Assembly (NCBI GenBank): GCA_037389465.1
Contig: JAZARR010000197.1
Span: 3,210,501-3,274,500 of the forward strand
Length of the DNA: 64,000 nucleotides
Direction: 5' to 3'
From: Baylisascaris procyonis
Lineage: Eukaryota > Nematoda > Chromadorea > Rhabditida > Ascarididae
Shown here: piece after piece, positions 34,001-61,298 of the stretch
How positions within the stretch are numbered: the first letter of the stretch is position 1
Layout: the number at the start of each line of letters is the position of its first letter
Program-made: the position numbers and the translations under genes
Notes under the pieces: generated by a model
What the model was told of the DNA's origin: nothing
Databases searched by the model: none
Seen by the model: the letters and a program-made list of their open reading frames with translations, nothing else

Positions 34001-35216
34001 AAGTTCCAGATATATATACAAATGGGATAGTACGCATCAGCCTCCCTCATTCGCATATTGGAGGAAAAAAAAGATTTTCGCATGCGATATGATAAAATAA
34101 CTCAAGCAATACAAGAGAAATTTCCTCTAATAAGAATCTTCAAATATGCGAACTTCTTTATGGCTTTCGTAATTCAGTCTTTCCCACATAAGGAATTCGC
34201 ATGCGAAATTTTTTCCAAATATATAAACGTTCCTTGAAGACTCAGCATGCTGATGTTTTTTTTTTAAAGAATACTTGGTCGTTTGTATGCAGTGAACATG
34301 CAACTAATGGGAAATCCTTCAAACAATCTAATGATGCAACATGTATTCACTGTCAAACAAATAACACAAGCAAAACAGATTCATTGTGAATTACAGAAGT
34401 GGCAGAACGAATCAGCAATTTTTGGAAAAGAACAAGTTTGTTCGATCAGGTTCCATCTGTCGGGTTGTATTATATTCTTCCCGAGGTGTACCCTTGAATT
34501 TGAATAAAAATTTCTGCCTCAAAGACCCTTTACGTGGCCTGGTATTGTGCAACCTTCTCCTTACCGATGTATATTTCAATTTCAGCTTCTAAACTTACCT
34601 AATAAAGCAAACCACAGGATAAATGAGAACGTTTAGCGCGCTTAGAACCTGGTTTTGTCGTTAGAACGCCTTTTTTAAAAACCTTATCTTTCCAGAAAGC
34701 TGTATTCATCTCTTTTTTTTATTCAAGAGCGGCAATGTTAGCATCTTAGTACACGTTATGCATTTTTACACTCTTAAAAAACATAACATAAGTACTCTTT
34801 TTTCGGCAATGATTAGAGAGTTCAAATAGATGAAATTATTTACAGACGTGAAAACAATTGAAGTAAAAAATAATGAAAAACAATAAAGGCAAACGATTGC
34901 CTTCTAAATGAGCTCATAAGTATACGTGCCAATTGGTAAGGTGTGCCACCTTCCAACATTATATAAGCATCACCATTTTAATAGTCGAGAGAGGTGTGCT
35001 GTAACGATGAATGCGTTTTTGTTGCTGCACTTGAATATCAATGACATATAAACCTAGAGATGCTTTGCAGCAAGCTATGCACATTATAGATTCGTTATGC
35101 GTTCAAACCCCCCATAAAAAAAGCGAAAGAAGCGAATTGGACGATAGCTATGAAAAAGATAAGCAGAACAGTTTCCTGCAATACACCGTCCTCCAAATTA
35201 CGGCATCCTGATCGGA
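31070..35216. other. gene-poor AT-rich region
   Basis: Only simple features were seen: an imperfect direct repeat at about 32330-32382 (GGCCAAAATnTACnCTCTATGAAA twice) and an ACAGAC-rich stretch near 33620-33650. No coding exon or RNA gene supported. Confidence 0.5.
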
Positions 35217-35408
35217 TACCACTTAATGATAAAACATCCCTCAAACGGATATCATTTAATGATAAAACATCCTTCAAACGGATATCATTTAATGATAAAA
35301 CATCCTTCAAACGGATATCATTCAATGATAAAACATCCTTCAAACGAATATAATTTAATGATAAAACATTCTTCAAACGGATATCACTTAATGACAAAAC
35401 ATCCTTTA
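35217..35408. repeat. minisatellite, 33 bp unit, about 6 copies
   Basis: The unit begins AATGATAAAACATCCTTCAA and continues ACGGATATCATTT. Copies differ by one to three bases. As 33 is a multiple of three, frames stay open on both strands (for example an 11-residue DVLSLNDIRLK repeat on the minus strand). I take those as consequences of the repeat, not genes. Confidence 0.95.
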
Positions 35409-36896: not shown

Positions 36897-37147
36897 AAAT
36901 GTTGCACGGACCCATGACGACGGGCGATAATTTGCACGGACCCATGACAACTGGCGTTAATCTTGCACAGACTAATGGCGACTGGCGATAATCTTGCACA
37001 GACTCATGACGACTGGCAATAATCTTGCACAGACTCATGACGACTGGCAATAATCTTGCACAAACTCATGACGACTGGCAATAACCTTGCACAGACTTAT
37101 GACGACTGGCAGTAACCTTGCATAGACCCATGACGACTGGCAGTAAC
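36897..37147. repeat. minisatellite, 31 bp unit, about 8 copies
   Basis: The unit contains TTGCACAGACTCATGACGAC followed by TGGCAATAATC. The left-most copies are the most diverged (CGGACCCATGACGACGGGCG); the middle copies are nearly identical. The 31 bp period does not keep a reading frame. Confidence 0.95.
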
Positions 37148-40100: not shown

Positions 40101-40393
40101 ATATTTAAAAAATTCGAGTAATTCCCTCATGAAAAATTTGCATTAGAAAATCCACATAGAAATTCCGTCCATCATCAGCTTCCTTCCCATTCCTAAAGAA
40201 GTTAAACATCATTCAGTGGTTACCCCATGGAGGGACAAATATATACTCCGTATGTCAAACATGCAAAAACTGCTATGTTCTTTTATTGAATTCCTTAGCT
40301 CTGCTCTTCAATTCAATTGTCTGCGCACCAATAAGTTTTAAACGACATTAGTTACCCTCTAAACGTTAGATATTGCCTTCAGAAGGACATTAG
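37148..40393. other. gene-poor region with a pyrimidine-rich patch
   Basis: A CT-rich stretch lies at about 38270-38322, just before a TATATA and the palindrome AGCATATATATGCT (38333-38346). It could be promoter-like, but no transcription unit is assigned. No supported coding exon was found. Confidence 0.4.
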
Positions 40394-40585
40394 ACACCAA
40401 AGAGGATTCAGCATCCTTCTTATAGAAACCAAAGAGGATTCAGTATCCTTCTTACAGGAACCAAAGAGGATTCAGCATAATTCTCATAGACACCAACGAG
40501 GATTCAGCGTCCTTCTTACAGAAACCAAAGAGGATTCAGCATTCTTCTTATAGACACCAAAAAGGATTCAGCATCCTTCTTACAG
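40394..40585. repeat. minisatellite, 32 bp unit, about 6 copies
   Basis: The unit contains AGAGGATTCAGCATCCTTCT followed by TATAGAAACCAA. Unit starts fall at 40401, 40433, 40465, 40497, 40529 and 40561, exactly 32 apart, with a few substitutions per copy. Confidence 0.95.
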
Positions 40586-41455
40586 TAAACGTTTTAAGCG
40601 TAAAGCGATTTTATATCAGTAAGCATTTTCCAGTACTCTTCTGGCAGACTAGAAATTTCTAAAATTGTTGGCCCGGCTATTCGCCAACTTTGCTTTGCTT
40701 TTAGCGCGCTACGAAATCTTGTCATTTCTGCAGAAAAATTATGCGCCCACTTATGCATGCAAATATGGTGAAACAATACAATGCTGAATAACGTAATATC
40801 GAAATCTTTGAAACACTACTTGGCGAGCACTACTGGTCCTTGCACTGTCCGGCAATTTAAAAATTCATTCCTCCATCTTAATACCTAGTAATTTTCAAAT
40901 CTTTCTTTGTCACCCCTTCAAAGATGACCACTCAAAGAACCTCAAAAGGTATGCAAAGGCGCCGGGGAAACGACTGTCGCGAAGATTCGCGAATGAGTTA
41001 GTGGGCTGCTGCACACAGTAAATCAAACTGTGTGTCAACGCAATAACTCAAAAAACGATCTAAGTTGATCTCTGACTGTGGCGACTATATCGTCTTCTAA
41101 TGCGGCGTTGCGGTCGTGTGTAAACGCGTGTCTTCTAATGCGTCGTGTGTAAGCGTGTAAGTGTAGCGCCTTTACTTCATTTGTCAGCACTTTCTTCTTC
41201 ATTGTTTTTTCTGAATTTAAACTTTATTTTCATGGTTACTTGTGGATTGCCTCAAAGTTCCACGATCTCGTCAGTAGTTTGTGACGTTTTTTTTCACTCT
41301 CCTCGTCATTTGTTTGTACCTTTTCGTTAGCTCATTACCAGAATCATCGCATTTGACTCAGATCATGTTTTATGATGGTTTTGTATTCGTTTTTCGAGTA
41401 TATCGCGTTTTTACGTTGTTTGTAAAGCATCAGAAGGTTTAATTACCCAAGTTTG
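40586..41455. other. spacer with GC-richer block and short direct repeat
   Basis: From about 40950 the DNA is clearly richer in G+C. A direct repeat of GTCTTCTAATGCG...GTCGTGTGTAA occurs at about 41091-41123 and 41128-41153. This may belong to the same element as the LTR to its right. No protein recognised. Confidence 0.4.
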
Positions 41456-47255: not shown

Positions 47256-48848
47256 ATTTCATACTCTCTTGAACGAGTTACACGACTTTTGATTGAAATT
47301 CAAATTAAGTAAGCGTTGATTAGTTTACTTTGAAAACAATTAAACCTACAAATTTGCACAAAATTTTATGGCGGATAAATAAAAAGAGGATTTTGCTTAG
47401 TAAAATAGACAACACTCTAAATCCCGTTTAGATTAAAAAGACGCCGTTGAGTCTATATGATGTGAAGGAGGGAATGACGAAAACGAAAAATCAACGTAGA
47501 AGCAGTGACCTGTCATCGTTGATTTATTGAGCAATACAAACAGCACCAACAAATAGTCAATTTTTCATAGAAAGGAAATCCGATAGCAGCAATCGTAATA
47601 ATTTCGGCGAAATGTGCACCTTTGCATAAAATTGATTACTTCAATTTGCAATCAAGTAATCATATGTCTTGAGATTTATTGTGATTAAATGAGGGGAAGG
47701 GGAGCGATTGATTCGATTCAAATAATTTAAAGCTAAAAATTTCTTAAAACCTTACAGCCCTAATAAAAATGAGCCTATACCTCCCTACATTCAAATATTG
47801 TCCCTTTTAATGCGGCCTTTATGCAGCTAAGTTCTGAAGAAAACGGAGCTCAATCATCTTCAATTTTAGTCACTTCCGTCATGGGTATTGTTTCCCAACC
47901 ACTTGAACAGTGAAGGAATAACGGCCAGTCCAAGTGGTATTCGTCCGTACTTCTTGGCATCAAATCAGAGGCTGGTGGATGCCTCTAGAGCAGATTTTTG
48001 TAACGTAAAAACGTTATGCATCACATTTATAAGTGTAGGAACTTATGCCATACGCCAATTCTTGAAACTTTATACGAAAAGATCATAATCTTAAGAATAC
48101 CAAATTTTCTGCGAAAACATGCCCTCTCAACAATTTTCATCAAACATGTGCCCTCATCTTGGGACTTTTTTCTTAAACATTTTAAAATTCAGAAGTGCAT
48201 AGAAAAATGGAATTCCTTATAATCCGAGGGATGGAACTTATATTTTTTGGAACTCATAATTCACGCAAAAGTTTATCAAGGAAAGGAGTTCTTTTACGGC
48301 AAAATTAGGTACCCAATGATAAAAGGAATAATTCGTAATGAACGCGGTTTTCATTTTGCCCAAGCAAAGAACTCCTTTAAACTTGCTTTTCTCTTACATT
48401 CTGCTGAGATCATCAGATTGCAATGCAAATTAGCTTAAGGAATTCTCGAAAAGAATACGTCAAGCAATGAAAGAGATTTTCGAATGTTCTTTGTTTTTAA
48501 CTGAATAAACAATATTTCCGACTGAATGTTATTCCTGATGTTTTCGAAAGAAAATAAAGCAATCAATCGGTATAAACACGAATTGCATAAGCGAAAAAAT
48601 CGAAAATGATGCAAAAAAAATTGATAATATTTCTCAAAGAAACTATGAACACCGATTAATGTTAGCGGAACATTGCACAAAAATATTTTTCTTCATTATA
48701 TAGCATAATCTTAGCATTCTTTACCCAGTCAAATACCTTTGGGATCCAAATCATCTCACCTATCTTTGCATAGTTAAGTAGTACAAAATCTAAAGAATTT
48801 CGATGTTTTTTCTCTTACTAGATATTATGCAATTTAAACAATCGTAGC
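47256..48848. other. AT-rich subtelomeric DNA
   Basis: No recognisable gene. Short open frames on both strands lack homology or splice support. Confidence 0.45.
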
Positions 48849-49366
48849 ACTTGTGCAAATCCACAAAATTCTTCCGGGTCTTTTTTGTTCCTCACATTTA
48901 TCAACGATCTTTCTGATAACACTGTGAGTGGCACCAGGCTCTTTTTTGATGTCACTAATGCAACACGGCTTTGTACTCTCAGCCTCCTAACTAGAACTTC
49001 ATTACTTCGCCAGCACATCTTGAAGTACTCCTATATACTCCTCTTATTTGGTTTCCTATGTCAAATAGCTAAAGAGTGCCCAAAAATGCTTAATCCATTC
49101 TTCCAGCAAAGTTTGTCCTAGTCTATGCCACTCAGCAGCCTAAAAATTTTCAACTTATGGTCATTGGAAAGTTGCAAGCTTAAGTTTGACTCGATTCTTT
49201 GTGTAATGAAATTATGCGCCACTTCTCCAATATTCCACCATCGGGAACGTTTCAGTTTGACCCTCCTCGTCGGGATATCGGTCTCACGTTCTGTGGATTC
49301 GAAATCCCCTTCCTGCTAAAATCGTTAACGCACCCATTCCATCTTTCAAATTTCCCTCACTTTCCA
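48849..49366 (+). pseudogene. non-LTR retrotransposon reverse transcriptase relic (CR1/jockey-like), next to the telomere array
   Basis: Successive plus-strand frames give the landmarks of a non-LTR reverse transcriptase in order. CANPQNSSGSFLFLTFINDL (about 48852-48911) stands for SGVPQGSVLGPLLFLIFINDL. TRLFFDV (about 48936) stands where the catalytic FADD should be, and both Asp are lost. HILKYSY (about 49014) matches RPILEYxS. NLWSLESCKLKFDSILCVMK (about 49150-49210) matches the C-terminal LxxLNLWSLExRRLRFDLIxCYK. IRNPLPAKIVNAPIPSFKF (about 49297-49352) matches WNSLPxxVVNAPSxxSFK. At least three frameshifts and a large internal deletion are present. It reads toward the telomere. Confidence 0.7.
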
Positions 49367-49544: not shown

Positions 49545-52500
49545 TAGGCTTAGGCTTAGGCTTAGGCTTAGGCTTAGGCTTAGGCTTAGGCTTAGGCTTA
49601 GGCTTAGGCTTAGGCTTAGGCTTAGGCTTAGGCTTAGGCTTAGGCTTAGGCTTAGGCTTAGGCTTAGGCTTAGGCTTAGGCTTAGGCTTAGGCTTAGGCT
49701 TAGGCTTAGGCTTAGGCTTAGGCTTAGGCTTAGGCTTAGGCTTAGGCTTAGGCTTAGGCTTAGGCTTAGGCTTAGGCTTAGGCTTAGGCTTAGGCTTAGG
49801 CTTAGGCTTAGGCTTAGGCTTAGGCTTAGGCTTAGGCTTAGGCTTAGGCTTAGGCTTAGGCTTAGGCTTAGGCTTAGGCTTAGGCTTAGGCTTAGGCTTA
49901 GGCTTAGGCTTAGGCTTAGGCTTAGGCTTAGGCTTAGGCTTAGGCTTAGGCTTAGGCTTAGGCTTAGGCTTAGGCTTAGGCTTAGGCTTAGGCTTAGGCT
50001 TAGGCTTAGGCTTAGGCTTAGGCTTAGGCTTAGGCTTAGGCTTAGGCTTAGGCTTAGGCTTAGGCTTAGGCTTAGGCTTAGGCTTAGGCTTAGGCTTAGG
50101 CTTAGGCTTAGGCTTAGGCTTAGGCTTAGGCTTAGGCTTAGGCTTAGGCTTAGGCTTAGGCTTAGGCTTAGGCTTAGGCTTAGGCTTAGGCTTAGGCTTA
50201 GGCTTAGGCTTAGGCTTAGGCTTAGGCTTAGGCTTAGGCTTAGGCTTAGGCTTAGGCTTAGGCTTAGGCTTAGGCTTAGGCTTAGGCTTAGGCTTAGGCT
50301 TAGGCTTAGGCTTAGGCTTAGGCTTAGGCTTAGGCTTAGGCTTAGGCTTAGGCTTAGGCTTAGGCTTAGGCTTAGGCTTAGGCTTAGGCTTAGGCTTAGG
50401 CTTAGGCTTAGGCTTAGGCTTAGGCTTAGGCTTAGGCTTAGGCTTAGGCTTAGGCTTAGGCTTAGGCTTAGGCTTAGGCTTAGGCTTAGGCTTAGGCTTA
50501 GGCTTAGGCTTAGGCTTAGGCTTAGGCTTAGGCTTAGGCTTAGGCTTAGGCTTAGGCTTAGGCTTAGGCTTAGGCTTAGGCTTAGGCTTAGGCTTAGGCT
50601 TAGGCTTAGGCTTAGGCTTAGGCTTAGGCTTAGGCTTAGGCTTAGGCTTAGGCTTAGGCTTAGGCTTAGGCTTAGGCTTAGGCTTAGGCTTAGGCTTAGG
50701 CTTAGGCTTAGGCTTAGGCTTAGGCTTAGGCTTAGGCTTAGGCTTAGGCTTAGGCTTAGGCTTAGGCTTAGGCTTAGGCTTAGGCTTAGGCTTAGGCTTA
50801 GGCTTAGGCTTAGGCTTAGGCTTAGGCTTAGGCTTAGGCTTAGGCTTAGGCTTAGGCTTAGGCTTAGGCTTAGGCTTAGGCTTAGGCTTAGGCTTAGGCT
50901 TAGGCTTAGGCTTAGGCTTAGGCTTAGGCTTAGGCTTAGGCTTAGGCTTAGGCTTAGGCTTAGGCTTAGGCTTAGGCTTAGGCTTAGGCTTAGGCTTAGG
51001 CTTAGGCTTAGGCTTAGGCTTAGGCTTAGGCTTAGGCTTAGGCTTAGGCTTAGGCTTAGGCTTAGGCTTAGGCTTAGGCTTAGGCTTAGGCTTAGGCTTA
51101 GGCTTAGGCTTAGGCTTAGGCTTAGGCTTAGGCTTAGGCTTAGGCTTAGGCTTAGGCTTAGGCTTAGGCTTAGGCTTAGGCTTAGGCTTAGGCTTAGGCT
51201 TAGGCTTAGGCTTAGGCTTAGGCTTAGGCTTAGGCTTAGGCTTAGGCTTAGGCTTAGGCTTAGGCTTAGGCTTAGGCTTAGGCTTAGGCTTAGGCTTAGG
51301 CTTAGGCTTAGGCTTAGGCTTAGGCTTAGGCTTAGGCTTAGGCTTAGGCTTAGGCTTAGGCTTAGGCTTAGGCTTAGGCTTAGGCTTAGGCTTAGGCTTA
51401 GGCTTAGGCTTAGGCTTAGGCTTAGGCTTAGGCTTAGGCTTAGGCTTAGGCTTAGGCTTAGGCTTAGGCTTAGGCTTAGGCTTAGGCTTAGGCTTAGGCT
51501 TAGGCTTAGGCTTAGGCTTAGGCTTAGGCTTAGGCTTAGGCTTAGGCTTAGGCTTAGGCTTAGGCTTAGGCTTAGGCTTAGGCTTAGGCTTAGGCTTAGG
51601 CTTAGGCTTAGGCTTAGGCTTAGGCTTAGGCTTAGGCTTAGGCTTAGGCTTAGGCTTAGGCTTAGGCTTAGGCTTAGGCTTAGGCTTAGGCTTAGGCTTA
51701 GGCTTAGGCTTAGGCTTAGGCTTAGGCTTAGGCTTAGGCTTAGGCTTAGGCTTAGGCTTAGGCTTAGGCTTAGGCTTAGGCTTAGGCTTAGGCTTAGGCT
51801 TAGGCTTAGGCTTAGGCTTAGGCTTAGGCTTAGGCTTAGGCTTAGGCTTAGGCTTAGGCTTAGGCTTAGGCTTAGGCTTAGGCTTAGGCTTAGGCTTAGG
51901 CTTAGGCTTAGGCTTAGGCTTAGGCTTAGGCTTAGGCTTAGGCTTAGGCTTAGGCTTAGGCTTAGGCTTAGGCTTAGGCTTAGGCTTAGGCTTAGGCTTA
52001 GGCTTAGGCTTAGGCTTAGGCTTAGGCTTAGGCTTAGGCTTAGGCTTAGGCTTAGGCTTAGGCTTAGGCTTAGGCTTAGGCTTAGGCTTAGGCTTAGGCT
52101 TAGGCTTAGGCTTAGGCTTAGGCTTAGGCTTAGGCTTAGGCTTAGGCTTAGGCTTAGGCTTAGGCTTAGGCTTAGGCTTAGGCTTAGGCTTAGGCTTAGG
52201 CTTAGGCTTAGGCTTAGGCTTAGGCTTAGGCTTAGGCTTAGGCTTAGGCTTAGGCTTAGGCTTAGGCTTAGGCTTAGGCTTAGGCTTAGGCTTAGGCTTA
52301 GGCTTAGGCTTAGGCTTAGGCTTAGGCTTAGGCTTAGGCTTAGGCTTAGGCTTAGGCTTAGGCTTAGGCTTAGGCTTAGGCTTAGGCTTAGGCTTAGGCT
52401 TAGGCTTAGGCTTAGGCTTAGGCTTAGGCTTAGGCTTAGGCTTAGGCTTAGGCTTAGGCTTAGGCTTAGGCTTAGGCTTAGGCTTAGGCTTAGGCTTAGG

Positions 52501-54943
52501 CTTAGGCTTAGGCTTAGGCTTAGGCTTAGGCTTAGGCTTAGGCTTAGGCTTAGGCTTAGGCTTAGGCTTAGGCTTAGGCTTAGGCTTAGGCTTAGGCTTA
52601 GGCTTAGGCTTAGGCTTAGGCTTAGGCTTAGGCTTAGGCTTAGGCTTAGGCTTAGGCTTAGGCTTAGGCTTAGGCTTAGGCTTAGGCTTAGGCTTAGGCT
52701 TAGGCTTAGGCTTAGGCTTAGGCTTAGGCTTAGGCTTAGGCTTAGGCTTAGGCTTAGGCTTAGGCTTAGGCTTAGGCTTAGGCTTAGGCTTAGGCTTAGG
52801 CTTAGGCTTAGGCTTAGGCTTAGGCTTAGGCTTAGGCTTAGGCTTAGGCTTAGGCTTAGGCTTAGGCTTAGGCTTAGGCTTAGGCTTAGGCTTAGGCTTA
52901 GGCTTAGGCTTAGGCTTAGGCTTAGGCTTAGGCTTAGGCTTAGGCTTAGGCTTAGGCTTAGGCTTAGGCTTAGGCTTAGGCTTAGGCTTAGGCTTAGGCT
53001 TAGGCTTAGGCTTAGGCTTAGGCTTAGGCTTAGGCTTAGGCTTAGGCTTAGGCTTAGGCTTAGGCTTAGGCTTAGGCTTAGGCTTAGGCTTAGGCTTAGG
53101 CTTAGGCTTAGGCTTAGGCTTAGGCTTAGGCTTAGGCTTAGGCTTAGGCTTAGGCTTAGGCTTAGGCTTAGGCTTAGGCTTAGGCTTAGGCTTAGGCTTA
53201 GGCTTAGGCTTAGGCTTAGGCTTAGGCTTAGGCTTAGGCTTAGGCTTAGGCTTAGGCTTAGGCTTAGGCTTAGGCTTAGGCTTAGGCTTAGGCTTAGGCT
53301 TAGGCTTAGGCTTAGGCTTAGGCTTAGGCTTAGGCTTAGGCTTAGGCTTAGGCTTAGGCTTAGGCTTAGGCTTAGGCTTAGGCTTAGGCTTAGGCTTAGG
53401 CTTAGGCTTAGGCTTAGGCTTAGGCTTAGGCTTAGGCTTAGGCTTAGGCTTAGGCTTAGGCTTAGGCTTAGGCTTAGGCTTAGGCTTAGGCTTAGGCTTA
53501 GGCTTAGGCTTAGGCTTAGGCTTAGGCTTAGGCTTAGGCTTAGGCTTAGGCTTAGGCTTAGGCTTAGGCTTAGGCTTAGGCTTAGGCTTAGGCTTAGGCT
53601 TAGGCTTAGGCTTAGGCTTAGGCTTAGGCTTAGGCTTAGGCTTAGGCTTAGGCTTAGGCTTAGGCTTAGGCTTAGGCTTAGGCTTAGGCTTAGGCTTAGG
53701 CTTAGGCTTAGGCTTAGGCTTAGGCTTAGGCTTAGGCTTAGGCTTAGGCTTAGGCTTAGGCTTAGGCTTAGGCTTAGGCTTAGGCTTAGGCTTAGGCTTA
53801 GGCTTAGGCTTAGGCTTAGGCTTAGGCTTAGGCTTAGGCTTAGGCTTAGGCTTAGGCTTAGGCTTAGGCTTAGGCTTAGGCTTAGGCTTAGGCTTAGGCT
53901 TAGGCTTAGGCTTAGGCTTAGGCTTAGGCTTAGGCTTAGGCTTAGGCTTAGGCTTAGGCTTAGGCTTAGGCTTAGGCTTAGGCTTAGGCTTAGGCTTAGG
54001 CTTAGGCTTAGGCTTAGGCTTAGGCTTAGGCTTAGGCTTAGGCTTAGGCTTAGGCTTAGGCTTAGGCTTAGGCTTAGGCTTAGGCTTAGGCTTAGGCTTA
54101 GGCTTAGGCTTAGGCTTAGGCTTAGGCTTAGGCTTAGGCTTAGGCTTAGGCTTAGGCTTAGGCTTAGGCTTAGGCTTAGGCTTAGGCTTAGGCTTAGGCT
54201 TAGGCTTAGGCTTAGGCTTAGGCTTAGGCTTAGGCTTAGGCTTAGGCTTAGGCTTAGGCTTAGGCTTAGGCTTAGGCTTAGGCTTAGGCTTAGGCTTAGG
54301 CTTAGGCTTAGGCTTAGGCTTAGGCTTAGGCTTAGGCTTAGGCTTAGGCTTAGGCTTAGGCTTAGGCTTAGGCTTAGGCTTAGGCTTAGGCTTAGGCTTA
54401 GGCTTAGGCTTAGGCTTAGGCTTAGGCTTAGGCTTAGGCTTAGGCTTAGGCTTAGGCTTAGGCTTAGGCTTAGGCTTAGGCTTAGGCTTAGGCTTAGGCT
54501 TAGGCTTAGGCTTAGGCTTAGGCTTAGGCTTAGGCTTAGGCTTAGGCTTAGGCTTAGGCTTAGGCTTAGGCTTAGGCTTAGGCTTAGGCTTAGGCTTAGG
54601 CTTAGGCTTAGGCTTAGGCTTAGGCTTAGGCTTAGGCTTAGGCTTAGGCTTAGGCTTAGGCTTAGGCTTAGGCTTAGGCTTAGGCTTAGGCTTAGGCTTA
54701 GGCTTAGGCTTAGGCTTAGGCTTAGGCTTAGGCTTAGGCTTAGGCTTAGGCTTAGGCTTAGGCTTAGGCTTAGGCTTAGGCTTAGGCTTAGGCTTAGGCT
54801 TAGGCTTAGGCTTAGGCTTAGGCTTAGGCTTAGGCTTAGGCTTAGGCTTAGGCTTAGGCTTAGGCTTAGGCTTAGGCTTAGGCTTAGGCTTAGGCTTAGG
54901 CTTAGGCTTAGGCTTAGGCTTAGGCTTAGGCTTAGGCTTAGGC
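49545..54943 (+). repeat. telomeric array (TTAGGC)n, left arm, about 900 units
   Basis: About 5.4 kb of essentially perfect TTAGGC on the plus strand. TTAGGC is the nematode telomere repeat, and the G-rich strand runs 5' to 3' toward a chromosome end, so this is the right end of the left-hand DNA. The unique-to-array border is abrupt. Open frames through it (poly Leu-Arg, poly Leu-Gly) are by-products of a stop-free hexamer. Confidence 0.99.
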
Positions 54944-55489
54944 TAAGCCTAAGCCTTAGCCTAAGCCTAAGCCTTAGCCTTAGCCTTAGGCTTAGGCTTA
55001 GGCTTAGGCTTAGGCTTAGGCTTAGGCTTAGGCTTAGGCTTAGGCTTAGGCTTAGGCTTAGGCTTAGGCTTAGGCTTAGGCTTAGGCTTAGGCTTAGGCT
55101 TAGGCTTAGGCTTAGGCTTAGGCTTAGGCTTAGGCTTAGGCTTAGGCTTAGGCTTAGGCTTAGGCTTAGGCTTAGGCTTAGGCTTAGGCTTAGGCTTAGG
55201 CTTAGGCTTAGGCTTAGGCTTAGGCTTAGGCTTAGGCTTAGGCTTAGGCTTAGCCTTAGCCTAAGCCTAAGCCTAAGCCTAAGCCTAAGCCTTAGCCTTA
55301 GCCTTAGGCCTAGCCCTAGGCTTAGGCTAAGCCTAAGCCTAAGCCTAAGCCTAAGCCTAAGGCTAAGCCTAAGCCTTAAGCTTAAGCCTAAGCCTAGGCT
55401 AAGCCTTAGGCTTAGGCTTAGGCTTAGGCTAAGCCTAAGCCTAAGCCTAAGCCTAAGCCTTAGCCTTAGGCTAAGCCTAAGGCTTAGGC
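54944..55489. repeat. mixed-orientation telomeric junction zone
   Basis: TTAGGC- and GCCTAA-type units alternate here with hybrid hexamers AGCCTT and AGGCTA. A pure TTAGGC block of about 265 bases (54986-55250) is embedded. Rarer units (AGGCCT, AGCCCT, AAGCTT) occur at about 55305-55390. The six-base register of the left array is kept throughout. Here the array changes polarity. Confidence 0.97.
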
Positions 55490-58400
55490 TTAGCCTAAGC
55501 CTAAGCCTAAGCCTAAGCCTAAGCCTAAGCCTAAGCCTAAGCCTAAGCCTAAGCCTAAGCCTAAGCCTAAGCCTAAGCCTAAGCCTAAGCCTAAGCCTAA
55601 GCCTAAGCCTAAGCCTAAGCCTAAGCCTAAGCCTAAGCCTAAGCCTAAGCCTAAGCCTAGGCTAAGCCTAAGCCTAAGCCTAAGCCTAAGCCTAAGCCTA
55701 AGCCTAAGCCTAAGCCTAAGCCTAAGCCTAAGCCTAAGCCTAAGCCTAAGCCTAAGCCTAAGCCTAAGCCTAAGCCTAAGCCTAAGCCTAAGCCTAAGCC
55801 TAAGCCTAAGCCTAAGCCTAAGCCTAAGCCTAAGCCTAAGCCTAAGCCTAAGCCTAAGCCTAAGCCTAAGCCTAAGCCTAAGCCTAAGCCTAAGCCTAAG
55901 CCTAAGCCTAAGCCTAAGCCTAAGCCTAAGCCTAAGCCTAAGCCTAAGCCTAAGCCTAAGCCTAAGCCTAAGCCTAAGCCTAAGCCTAAGCCTAAGCCTA
56001 AGCCTAAGCCTAAGCCTAAGCCTAAGCCTAAGCCTAAGCCTAAGCCTAAGCCTAAGCCTAAGCCTAAGCCTAAGCCTAAGCCTAAGCCTAAGCCTAAGCC
56101 TAAGCCTAAGCCTAAGCCTAAGCCTAAGCCTAAGCCTAAGCCTAAGCCTAAGCCTAAGCCTAAGCCTAAGCCTAAGCCTAAGCCTAAGCCTAAGCCTAAG
56201 CCTAAGCCTAAGCCTAAGCCTAAGCCTAAGCCTAAGCCTAAGCCTAAGCCTAAGCCTAAGCCTAAGCCTAAGCCTAAGCCTAAGCCTAAGCCTAAGCCTA
56301 AGCCTAAGCCTAAGCCTAAGCCTAAGCCTAAGCCTAAGCCTAAGCCTAAGCCTAAGCCTAAGCCTAAGCCTAAGCCTAAGCCTAAGCCTAAGCCTAAGCC
56401 TAAGCCTAAGCCTAAGCCTAAGCCTAAGCCTAAGCCTAAGCCTAAGCCTAAGCCTAAGCCTAAGCCTAAGCCTAAGCCTAAGCCTAAGCCTAAGCCTAAG
56501 CCTAAGCCTAAGCCTAAGCCTAAGCCTAAGCCTAAGCCTAAGCCTAAGCCTAAGCCTAAGCCTAAGCCTAAGCCTAAGCCTAAGCCTAAGCCTAAGCCTA
56601 AGCCTAAGCCTAAGCCTAAGCCTAAGCCTAAGCCTAAGCCTAAGCCTAAGCCTAAGCCTAAGCCTAAGCCTAAGCCTAAGCCTAAGCCTAAGCCTAAGCC
56701 TAAGCCTAAGCCTAAGCCTAAGCCTAAGCCTAAGCCTAAGCCTAAGCCTAAGCCTAAGCCTAAGCCTAAGCCTAAGCCTAAGCCTAAGCCTAAGCCTAAG
56801 CCTAAGCCTAAGCCTAAGCCTAAGCCTAAGCCTAAGCCTAAGCCTAAGCCTAAGCCTAAGCCTAAGCCTAAGCCTAAGCCTAAGCCTAAGCCTAAGCCTA
56901 AGCCTAAGCCTAAGCCTAAGCCTAAGCCTAAGCCTAAGCCTAAGCCTAAGCCTAAGCCTAAGCCTAAGCCTAAGCCTAAGCCTAAGCCTAAGCCTAAGCC
57001 TAAGCCTAAGCCTAAGCCTAAGCCTAAGCCTAAGCCTAAGCCTAAGCCTAAGCCTAAGCCTAAGCCTAAGCCTAAGCCTAAGCCTAAGCCTAAGCCTAAG
57101 CCTAAGCCTAAGCCTAAGCCTAAGCCTAAGCCTAAGCCTAAGCCTAAGCCTAAGCCTAAGCCTAAGCCTAAGCCTAAGCCTAAGCCTAAGCCTAAGCCTA
57201 AGCCTAAGCCTAAGCCTAAGCCTAAGCCTAAGCCTAAGCCTAAGCCTAAGCCTAAGCCTAAGCCTAAGCCTAAGCCTAAGCCTAAGCCTAAGCCTAAGCC
57301 TAAGCCTAAGCCTAAGCCTAAGCCTAAGCCTAAGCCTAAGCCTAAGCCTAAGCCTAAGCCTAAGCCTAAGCCTAAGCCTAAGCCTAAGCCTAAGCCTAAG
57401 CCTAAGCCTAAGCCTAAGCCTAAGCCTAAGCCTAAGCCTAAGCCTAAGCCTAAGCCTAAGCCTAAGCCTAAGCCTAAGCCTAAGCCTAAGCCTAAGCCTA
57501 AGCCTAAGCCTAAGCCTAAGCCTAAGCCTAAGCCTAAGCCTAAGCCTAAGCCTAAGCCTAAGCCTAAGCCTAAGCCTAAGCCTAAGCCTAAGCCTAAGCC
57601 TAAGCCTAAGCCTAAGCCTAAGCCTAAGCCTAAGCCTAAGCCTAAGCCTAAGCCTAAGCCTAAGCCTAAGCCTAAGCCTAAGCCTAAGCCTAAGCCTAAG
57701 CCTAAGCCTAAGCCTAAGCCTAAGCCTAAGCCTAAGCCTAAGCCTAAGCCTAAGCCTAAGCCTAAGCCTAAGCCTAAGCCTAAGCCTAAGCCTAAGCCTA
57801 AGCCTAAGCCTAAGCCTAAGCCTAAGCCTAAGCCTAAGCCTAAGCCTAAGCCTAAGCCTAAGCCTAAGCCTAAGCCTAAGCCTAAGCCTAAGCCTAAGCC
57901 TAAGCCTAAGCCTAAGCCTAAGCCTAAGCCTAAGCCTAAGCCTAAGCCTAAGCCTAAGCCTAAGCCTAAGCCTAAGCCTAAGCCTAAGCCTAAGCCTAAG
58001 CCTAAGCCTAAGCCTAAGCCTAAGCCTAAGCCTAAGCCTAAGCCTAAGCCTAAGCCTAAGCCTAAGCCTAAGCCTAAGCCTAAGCCTAAGCCTAAGCCTA
58101 AGCCTAAGCCTAAGCCTAAGCCTAAGCCTAAGCCTAAGCCTAAGCCTAAGCCTAAGCCTAAGCCTAAGCCTAAGCCTAAGCCTAAGCCTAAGCCTAAGCC
58201 TAAGCCTAAGCCTAAGCCTAAGCCTAAGCCTAAGCCTAAGCCTAAGCCTAAGCCTAAGCCTAAGCCTAAGCCTAAGCCTAAGCCTAAGCCTAAGCCTAAG
58301 CCTAAGCCTAAGCCTAAGCCTAAGCCTAAGCCTAAGCCTAAGCCTAAGCCTAAGCCTAAGCCTAAGCCTAAGCCTAAGCCTAAGCCTAAGCCTAAGCCTA

Positions 58401-58736
58401 AGCCTAAGCCTAAGCCTAAGCCTAAGCCTAAGCCTAAGCCTAAGCCTAAGCCTAAGCCTAAGCCTAAGCCTAAGCCTAAGCCTAAGCCTAAGCCTAAGCC
58501 TAAGCCTAAGCCTAAGCCTAAGCCTAAGCCTAAGCCTAAGCCTAAGCCTAAGCCTAAGCCTAAGCCTAAGCCTAAGCCTAAGCCTAAGCCTAAGCCTAAG
58601 CCTAAGCCTAAGCCTAAGCCTAAGCCTAAGCCTAAGCCTAAGCCTAAGCCTAAGCCTAAGCCTAAGCCTAAGCCTAAGCCTAAGCCTAAGCCAATAAGCC
58701 TAAGCCTAAGCCTAAGCCTAAGCCTAAGCCTAAGCC
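55490..58736 (-). repeat. telomeric array (GCCTAA)n, right arm, about 540 units
   Basis: About 3.2 kb of GCCTAA on the plus strand, which is TTAGGC on the minus strand running leftward: the polarity of a left chromosome end for the DNA that follows. It is nearly perfect. Exceptions are one 5-base unit (GGCTA) at about 55660, which shifts the register by one, and CCAATAAG at about 58691. A stray AGCCTAAG at 58752-58759 lies just past the edge. Confidence 0.99.
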
Positions 58737-59053
58737 TTCGTCAAAGCTCAAGCCTAAGTGTTTCAAAGCTCACTATGATTCAGACTATAAGTCCTTATTC
58801 GATTGTATTTCGGACTAAAAGCTAATGAAATACATGAGAGCCGAGAATTGTAAATGGAATTCAGAACAAGTAGTCCTAAGAAATGAAATCATTAGAACAT
58901 ATCATAATGCGTATAAAAATTCCTCTACGACCAGCCACAGCTTCTTACGAAATGCACACGAGAGAATACATCATGAACATGGGTTTTAACTATTGATAGA
59001 AAGTGATATATTCACAGAATAAATGTCCCTATTTTTGAAAGCATTTCCTCTAG

Positions 59054-59125
<72 letters not shown>

Positions 59126-59532
59126 TGTTCAACGTCGAAACTGTGTATTATTTGGCGTGAGGAATATGAACAAAAACAAAAAATGGAAGCCAACCAGCTG
59201 AGATTCTGCTTTGCTTCTGATGCGAACAAACTGATGCATTTTCTATGGCTTCACTGGGATGCTCACTCATCCGTTACGGAGGCCAAATATAACAGTGGTT
59301 CTTCCCCGCAAGACTCGCTTCCCCGCAAGTTTGCTTTTAGGCATCATTTGAATCCATCGGCCACCCACTCTCTGGCGCGAAGCGTTATAAACATACCACC
59401 TATAAACATACCGCCTTTCACGCTCTTATTGTAGCCAACTACGAAACAATTTTCAATGCATGATAGAATAATCAATTACGAAGATCACCTAACTCACGTA
59501 ATGATTATTCGAGTAAAACGAAACATTTTCAG
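58737..59532. other. unique DNA at the right subtelomeric edge
   Basis: The first bases are degenerate telomere-like and then unique. A plus-strand frame at 59183-59434 lacks homology or splice support. The short repeat CTTCCCCGCAAG-T occurs twice near 59293-59330, and ATAAACATACC twice near 59389-59412. Confidence 0.45.
59057..59123. repeat. (AT)n microsatellite
   Basis: About 67 bases of alternating A and T, 320 bases outside the right telomeric array. Confidence 0.97.
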
Positions 59533-59667
59533 TTTCTGTCACATCGGATAACAACGAGCAGAAAACATCTTCACAGCCAACAAGTGCCGAAGTATTGAAT
59601 AAATCAAAGACGGACAGCAACAGTATGGAAAAAGAAGCACAACAACCGTCAACAGCAAATGCCCAAC
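59533..59667 (+). CDS. probable coding exon, hydrophilic S/T/Q/K-rich, unknown protein
   Basis: 135 bases between acceptor CATTTTCAG and donor CAAC|GTAAGT. It is open in only one frame, phase 1 in and 1 out, reading SVTSDNNEQKTSSQPTSAEV then LNKSKTDSNSMEKEAQQPST and ANAQ. Both splice sites are strong, and the composition is that of a disordered linker. The next acceptor (TTTTTCAG at 60310) can be joined in phase for only about 38 bases before a GT or stop, so the partner exons are unresolved. It may belong to the 61691-63122 gene. Confidence 0.5.
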
Positions 59668-61298
59668 GTAAGTGCAAGACATATATTGGGTTAGAATCAG
59701 TGAACAGTGTTGTGCACTTACATCGAAAATGCCACACACGAATGCGATATGTTCTTCGAACTATCGTCGATCATATAATAAAGGCCATCTTTTTACTGAT
59801 ATTTTATATTGTTTAATGTAATATTCAACACACCATTACGGGAATCAGCAACTAGAAAATCTTATGAATAAAGGATGAAAGCAGTGAGGATCTAAAGCGC
59901 CTTTATTAAGCTCACATTTGATAATTTTTAGATCTACTTTCATGCATAGTGAACGAACGATAAACTCACTAAGCAAACAGACAGCTTTTGCTCACCTAAT
60001 GTCCCCCTCAATCTTTGTTCTTCCCTCGATCAGTATAGAATTCAAGAGCGTTCAGGAAAGTTCATATTGTTTTGGTTGACTCAACTGCTTGAAAACTCAT
60101 CAACATATATATGTTGAATTTATGAAAGTGAAGAATGCTGATGATGCAATCACATTCATTTTCGATTCTCCAATCAAATGCTTAGCTTGCGATAGTGTTC
60201 CATCAATTCAGATAATCTAAATTTCTCATAATTCTTTCAATATTGCCATTATTACAGCAGTATCATTGTTTGTTAAATCCAAACTTTTGCTTGCAAATAA
60301 AATTTTTCAGCGCAAACTTCGAAAGGTGGATGGCTATCTTTCTGGTAGTAACCTGTAAGTGATAATATACATTTTTTCTAGATCTTAAGCAGCTAGCATA
60401 GTGCATCAATTTATATTCCCTTTCGAATGGCTATTTAAGGAACCTATTAGTGTACTGCAAAGCGCTACAATGAGGCGAGGACCTAAAATGAACTGTGATC
60501 TCCTCTCTTCTTTTCTCTAAACGAATAAATGGCATTTGGAAAGGCTAATTTAAATAAAACTGTGTCGATGTAGAATATGAATCCGTCAATAATATGTACC
60601 TATCAGCATTCCCACTTATTAAATGCTGACAGTCGTCCGGAATTTCCGAATTTAGAGTAAAGAGAAAGGACCGTTACCAGAAATTTTGCGATGTTACGCA
60701 GTAACTATTTGCGAGACGAACCCTTTTCGCCTTATGTCATGCAATGTACCAACAGGATAATACTGCGGTGTCTGCGAACGTTAATTGTGCGTTCTCTGAA
60801 GCATATCATTTCAAGGCATATATGTGCTGATCAAAATATGTAAGTGAACAAAGACAAAGAAGGAAGAGAGAAAATGTTTTCATATCGAACGTCGTTCAGG
60901 AGGTTCACGTTTGATGCCTCGAAATATCTGTTTTCTTTTAGAAGAAAATAAGCGATCACTCACTCGCCCAATCATAAAAATCTCTAAATATTCATAATCA
61001 AGGCAACTCAACGATTGCTTTGCAAAATTTTCAGTTGCCTCAATCAAGAAGGAATGATCGCCGAACAGTGATATAATATAATTTCGAAGAGCCTCTAGTG
61101 TAAGATGGAGTTTATGTGATGATGTGAAAGAATGTATGATTGAATTGAATTATGTATCGATCATAAAGCTGCTATTTCAGAAGTCGAAGATTTATATAAT
61201 TTTAGCATTCAATAAGAACAGCACCTCCCAACTTCTAGTGTTCCAAGTATAATCAAGAGAGGCTTTACAATGAAATGGAACCAAATACCTGAAAATCG
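59668..61298. other. spacer or introns upstream of the right-hand gene
   Basis: Candidate short exons follow TTTTCAG acceptors at 60310 (RKLRKVDGYLSGSNL in one frame) and 61035 (LPQSRRNDRRTVI), but none can be phased with confidence. The palindrome CAACATATATATGTTG is at 60101-60116. Confidence 0.35.

Follow-up and report, generated by a model that had tools for sequence, protein, structure and literature searches.

Misjoins through telomere repeats form a general class of assembly error. The fusion site of human chromosome 2, by comparison, is short and decayed and has one switch point. In ascarids with programmed DNA elimination the soma loses all germline chromosome ends, and the germline chromosomes themselves are regarded as fused chromosomes that come apart again in the soma (PMC9894435).

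Here we analyzed a 64-kb stretch of DNA (the window; C195:3210501-3274500) from an assembly of 272.8 Mb in 293 contigs, in which two telomere arrays face each other inside one contig. A sequence-only reading of the window had left two explanations standing, namely a recent end-to-end chromosome fusion and an assembler joining two chromosome ends. By comparing the arrays, their flanks, and similar junctions elsewhere in the assembly, we conclude that the window junction is very probably an assembly misjoin, in which two different capped ascarid chromosome ends were joined tip to tip. The features on which this comparison is based are as follows.

48268..48856, plus strand: subtelomeric element in the left flank, 73-77% identity to C227, C235, and C95
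49545..54944, plus strand: telomere array of TTAGGC capping the left chromosome piece at its right-hand end, a single exact run of 5,400 bp with zero deviations
54943..55661, no strand assigned: in-register strand mosaic, attributed to a putative misjoin, with nine strand flips, eight of them sharing one register
55662..58737, minus strand: telomere array, TTAGGC as read on the minus strand, capping the right chromosome piece at its left-hand end, exact in 55662-58692 and again in 58695-58737

Tandem Repeats Finder called TTAGGC at 49545-55493 (991.5 copies, score 11450) and GCCTAA at 55252-58737 (580.8 copies, score 6719) in the window, and given these scores chance is no explanation for the arrays. 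Together with the exact runs, these calls establish that the head-to-head TTAGGC arrays proposed from the sequence are real (49545-54944 versus 55662-58737), and unit orientation confirms that each arm has the polarity of a chromosome end, the two ends facing each other. The arrays had also been described as long and nearly undecayed, which holds for both: the plus-strand arm runs for 5,400 bp without deviation, and the minus-strand arm consists of 3,031 bp of exact GCCTAA (55662-58692), followed by a small indel and then 43 bases to 58737. The statement that the arms meet stands only in part, in that they do face each other but not at one point; a mosaic of approximately 720 bp, missed earlier, lies between them.

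Unique DNA had been claimed on both outer sides, and in agreement with this both flanks are non-telomeric and show no mutual similarity by blastn; a fold-back of a single end at the window site is thereby excluded. Telomere units outside the arrays and the mosaic occur in the window as isolated singles only. Where the 48268-48856 element recurs, in C227, C235, and C95, a TTAGGC array of matching polarity is approximately 0.8-1.4 kb away and the contig end 7-8 kb away. Genome searches with the two 3-kb flanks returned, among the 32 and 6 matches listed, no near-identical second copy of either, and hence none running past the array as a germline continuation would; this result is to be read with the assembly possibly holding mostly soma, and with a similar genome search having missed its own query place. 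Pfam gave a single match, below the cut-off, for six open reading frames of the window, and an Rfam search of the window gave zero matches. Tandem Repeats Finder also called three minisatellites within 5.4 kb of the window (35213-35406, 36898-37146, and 40391-40590), whose units measure 33, 31, and 32 bp, respectively.

The mosaic between the arms (about 54943-55661) contains nine strand switches, eight of which keep one 6-bp register. Read in a common frame, it is made up of TTAGGC, the opposite-strand unit TAAGCC, and two hybrids, TTAGCC and TAAGGC, each of which takes one column from each strand. A census of its 116 units gave 53 TTAGGC, 52 TAAGCC, 9 TTAGCC, and 2 TAAGGC.

Contig C195 is 9,805,156 bp long and the junction lies 3.27 Mb inside it. 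The first 10 kb of the contig have no telomere array and include 2,500 N. Its right end carries a TTAGGC array of approximately 5.4 kb, and the part to the right of the junction is therefore a telomere-to-telomere piece of approximately 6.5 Mb, capped on either side like a complete chromosome. A second contig, C8 (4.11 Mb), carries a telomere array at either end, approximately 5.5 and 4.7 kb long. The window arms, at 5.4 and 3.1 kb, resemble the arrays that terminate C8, C170, and C195 (4.7-6.2 kb), that is, the arms are like intact terminal telomeres of this assembly.

Several further observations concern the contigs themselves. At C195:9796449-9797676, 2-3 kb inside the right telomere, there are 49 GCCTAA units opposite in orientation to the terminal array. 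C162:1-10000 reads as 10,000 N, which, like the N at the start of C195, are either gaps or withheld letters. The right end of C170 (1753-3803 of the end piece) and the left end of C8 (6603-8699 of the end piece) have 2.1 kb of subtelomeric DNA in common, with 88% identity. Short arrays of the pentamer TTGCA, the unit of a Parascaris satellite, occur in C89, C110, C169, C177, C186, and C228 (85 overlapping 35-mer matches altogether), and the Parascaris 10-mer satellite is absent from the assembly. Four exons in C169 match an Ascaris haemoglobin domain at 75-93%; together with the telomere repeat, this indicates that the source is probably an ascarid related to, but distinct from, Ascaris.

Head-to-head junctions are not confined to the window. 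An exact in-register pattern was found at 10 places on six contigs (C32, C162, C168, C170, C172, and C195), and a phase-free head-to-head pattern gave 31 matches per strand, some of them nested, on 11 contigs, adding C88, C152, C179, C210, and C258. Seven of the 11 sites (C32, C162, C168, C170, C172, C195, and C210) were read in sequence and C258 was placed by position. The distance from junction to nearest contig end is 1.1 kb in C32, 2.1 kb in C210, 4.7 kb in C172, 22.8 kb in C162, 25.1 kb in C258, 27.9 kb in C168, 52.8 kb in C170, and 3,265.5 kb in C195; seven of the eight placed sites thus lie less than 53 kb from a contig end, with C195 the sole exception. C32 and C172 start inside a telomere array of the wrong strand, C210 has a sharp palindrome in a different register, and both C210 and C170 have only one strand switch. 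The arms on the overhang side are noisier at C162:3894606-3898996, C170:46665-52778, and C172:1-4372, as if read support there were low.

A tail-to-tail pattern, which misses the strand flips inside the window mosaic, was limited to C32, C162, C168, C172, and a cluster in C88; given this restriction, the idea that tail-to-tail arrays point to random inversion was rejected. In the C88 cluster (C88:6264258-6293867), analyzed by position only, short inverted telomere motifs number five, namely two pairs approximately 1.33 kb apart plus one single; they recur every 14.5-14.9 kb, each with a tail-to-tail motif 125 bp later. The cluster looks like a long tandem unit containing interstitial telomere repeats.

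Hybrid units account for 36 of 276 units in six mosaics versus 0 of 4,815 in six clean stretches of arm, the latter having been trimmed so that noisy edges were left out; in ten further arms, hybrids numbered 14 of 2,417 units in four noisier overhang-side arms and 1 of 6,947 in the remaining six. Of the 25 strand flips at the seven sites read, 21 preserve a single register, against a chance expectation of 1 in 6, and the nominal p of 3e-13 is not to be taken literally, given that six of the seven sites were picked by the in-register pattern and one flip at each is therefore biased. A toy consensus built from mixed-strand noisy reads gave pure units plus hybrids, and one built without strand mixing still yielded 6 hybrid units in 83. 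As a matter of plausibility only, the toy model indicates that a column-wise vote over reads of both strands could make a mosaic-like pattern. Column voting fails to explain every junction, the palindrome of C210 and the single flip of C170 being the cases in point.

Both flanks were compared at three sites (C195, C162, and C170), and of these only C195 has flanks that are not mutual copies. In C162, a 6.6-kb stretch beyond the junction (C162:3899201-3905800) is an inverted copy of C162:3882204-3888818, with 99.5% identity over 2,943 aligned bp (3 substitutions plus 11 gap columns, each gap being a base absent from the short overhang copy). In C170, 45001-46566 repeats 59148-60713 in inverted orientation, with 1 difference in 1,566 bp. 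At both sites the inverted copies diverge right beside the array: the clean array begins 113 bp versus 18 bp past the shared point in the two copies of C170 (approximately 95 bp apart), and 308 versus 114 bp past it in C162, where the pre-array sequence differs between copies. At each of C162 and C170, a chromosome end is thus joined tip to tip with a second copy of itself that is capped differently, and one folded molecule is excluded at either site by the different cap positions. Caps at different positions are known from these two assembled copies each at C170 and C162; the window flanks occur once each among the matches listed. A genome search for a duplicate of the C170 left overhang scored 38 of 219 candidates, and the query's own place was not among the matches listed. 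The variable caps (C170:45001-46700/59100-60713 and C162:3886001-3889300/3899000-3902000) fit variable end healing in programmed DNA elimination. Senseless joins therefore occur elsewhere in the assembly, both as the wrong-strand starts of C32 and C172 and as the self-copy joins of C162 and C170.

The repeat itself suggests how such joins could arise. TTAGGC and its in-register reverse complement TAAGCC are identical at 4 of the 6 positions, which gives a similarity of 0.67; the similarity to the own reverse complement is 0.33 for TTAGGG and <=0.40 for five other telomere repeats. At a simulated read error of 13-15%, same-strand similarity drops to approximately 0.8 and opposite-strand similarity stays near 0.62. 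Opposite-strand similarity is high, and an assembler tolerating noisy reads could therefore overlap tips across strands. We infer both the particular reads and the assembler step behind the join: the quasi-palindromic repeat would let noisy long reads of two ends overlap across strands, an assembler tolerant of such reads would join the two telomere tips, and reads of both strands, once stacked, would be put to a column-by-column consensus vote that leaves an in-register mosaic and hybrid units. A 3.26-Mb chromosome end would in this way have been joined to the telomere-to-telomere piece, and the capped ends may be somatic ends healed after programmed DNA elimination. A related published assembly, that of Baylisascaris schroederi, was produced from PacBio subreads with Canu (PMC9684166); the same route is not implied for the present assembly. 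Reassembly with reads of ten or more telomere units put aside has been used for Caenorhabditis monodelphis (PMC13370393).

The assembler join, raised as the competing explanation in the sequence-only reading, is favored because the junction mosaic mixes strands, because similar joins recur at other chromosome ends in the assembly, two of them joining an end to its own copy, and because the arms match terminal telomeres of the assembly in length. Against it, among the placed sites C195 alone lies far from any contig end, the flanks on its two sides are unlike each other, its arms stay flawless until the mosaic begins, whereas the overhang arms of C162, C170, and C172 are noisy, and highly accurate reads would reject a 67% overlap. 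The position 3.27 Mb inside a contig suits a true, recent germline end-to-end fusion that kept both telomeres and was tolerated through the holocentric chromosomes of nematodes, as do the head-to-head polarity and the distinct, unique DNA on either side. Stable end-to-end fusions are carried by C. elegans telomerase mutants (PMC9071541), and ascarid germline chromosomes are regarded as fusion products (PMC9894435). Such a fusion would be expected to leave a single strand switch point, whereas there are nine flips in approximately 720 bp, nearly all in one register, plus hybrids; both arms are long and undecayed, and like junctions sit at other contig ends, including the two that join an end to its own copy. 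The recent fusion envisaged earlier is thus left without support and is very unlikely.

Two further explanations draw on the joins of C162 and C170. Near-identical inverted copies at these sites, and the palindrome so close to the end of C210, could come from chimeric or folded-back library molecules, with array-to-array overlap then pulling in a second chromosome; the C162 and C170 copies, however, are capped at different positions, such that neither represents one folded molecule, and from one chimeric read a lone switch point would be expected rather than a mosaic, which makes this route extremely improbable. Real somatic telomere fusions following programmed DNA elimination, involving sister or homologous ends as well as different chromosomes, would also give the differently capped copies, if sister or homologous ends had healed independently before they fused. 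We give this reading equally little credence, and the associated proposal, that holocentric chromosomes let the fused products persist until they were sequenced, remains highly improbable: sequence past seven of the eight placed junctions extends for at most 52.8 kb, and biology offers no ready source for the mosaic or for the hybrid units.

The apparent telomere-to-telomere fusion in C195 is most likely an assembly error and not a real chromosomal feature. Anyone accepting the contig as it stands would cite it as a recent chromosome fusion, and in this nematode lineage fusion is a live question. Cutting C195 at the mosaic would give the telomere-to-telomere piece of approximately 6.5 Mb and a separate 3.26-Mb piece with a telomeric end. 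The combination of in-register mosaic, hybrid units, and the quasi-palindromic TTAGGC can serve as a quick flag for false telomere fusions in nematode assemblies.

None of the papers listed in literature searches was seen to deal with this exact misjoin case. The site can be compared with the systems named at the outset. Like the human chromosome 2 site, it has inverted telomere arrays that face each other and are bordered by unique DNA, but the window arrays are long and undecayed and are separated by nine flips. With programmed DNA elimination and new telomere formation in ascarids, the assembly shares the capping of one end at different positions (C170 and C162), although these variable caps come from two assembled copies outside the window site. 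With the general telomere-repeat misjoin it has in common that ends are joined tip to tip with nothing else between them and that the fault recurs within the assembly; what differs here is that the repeat is quasi-palindromic, which would provide a specific route for the join and leave an in-register scar.
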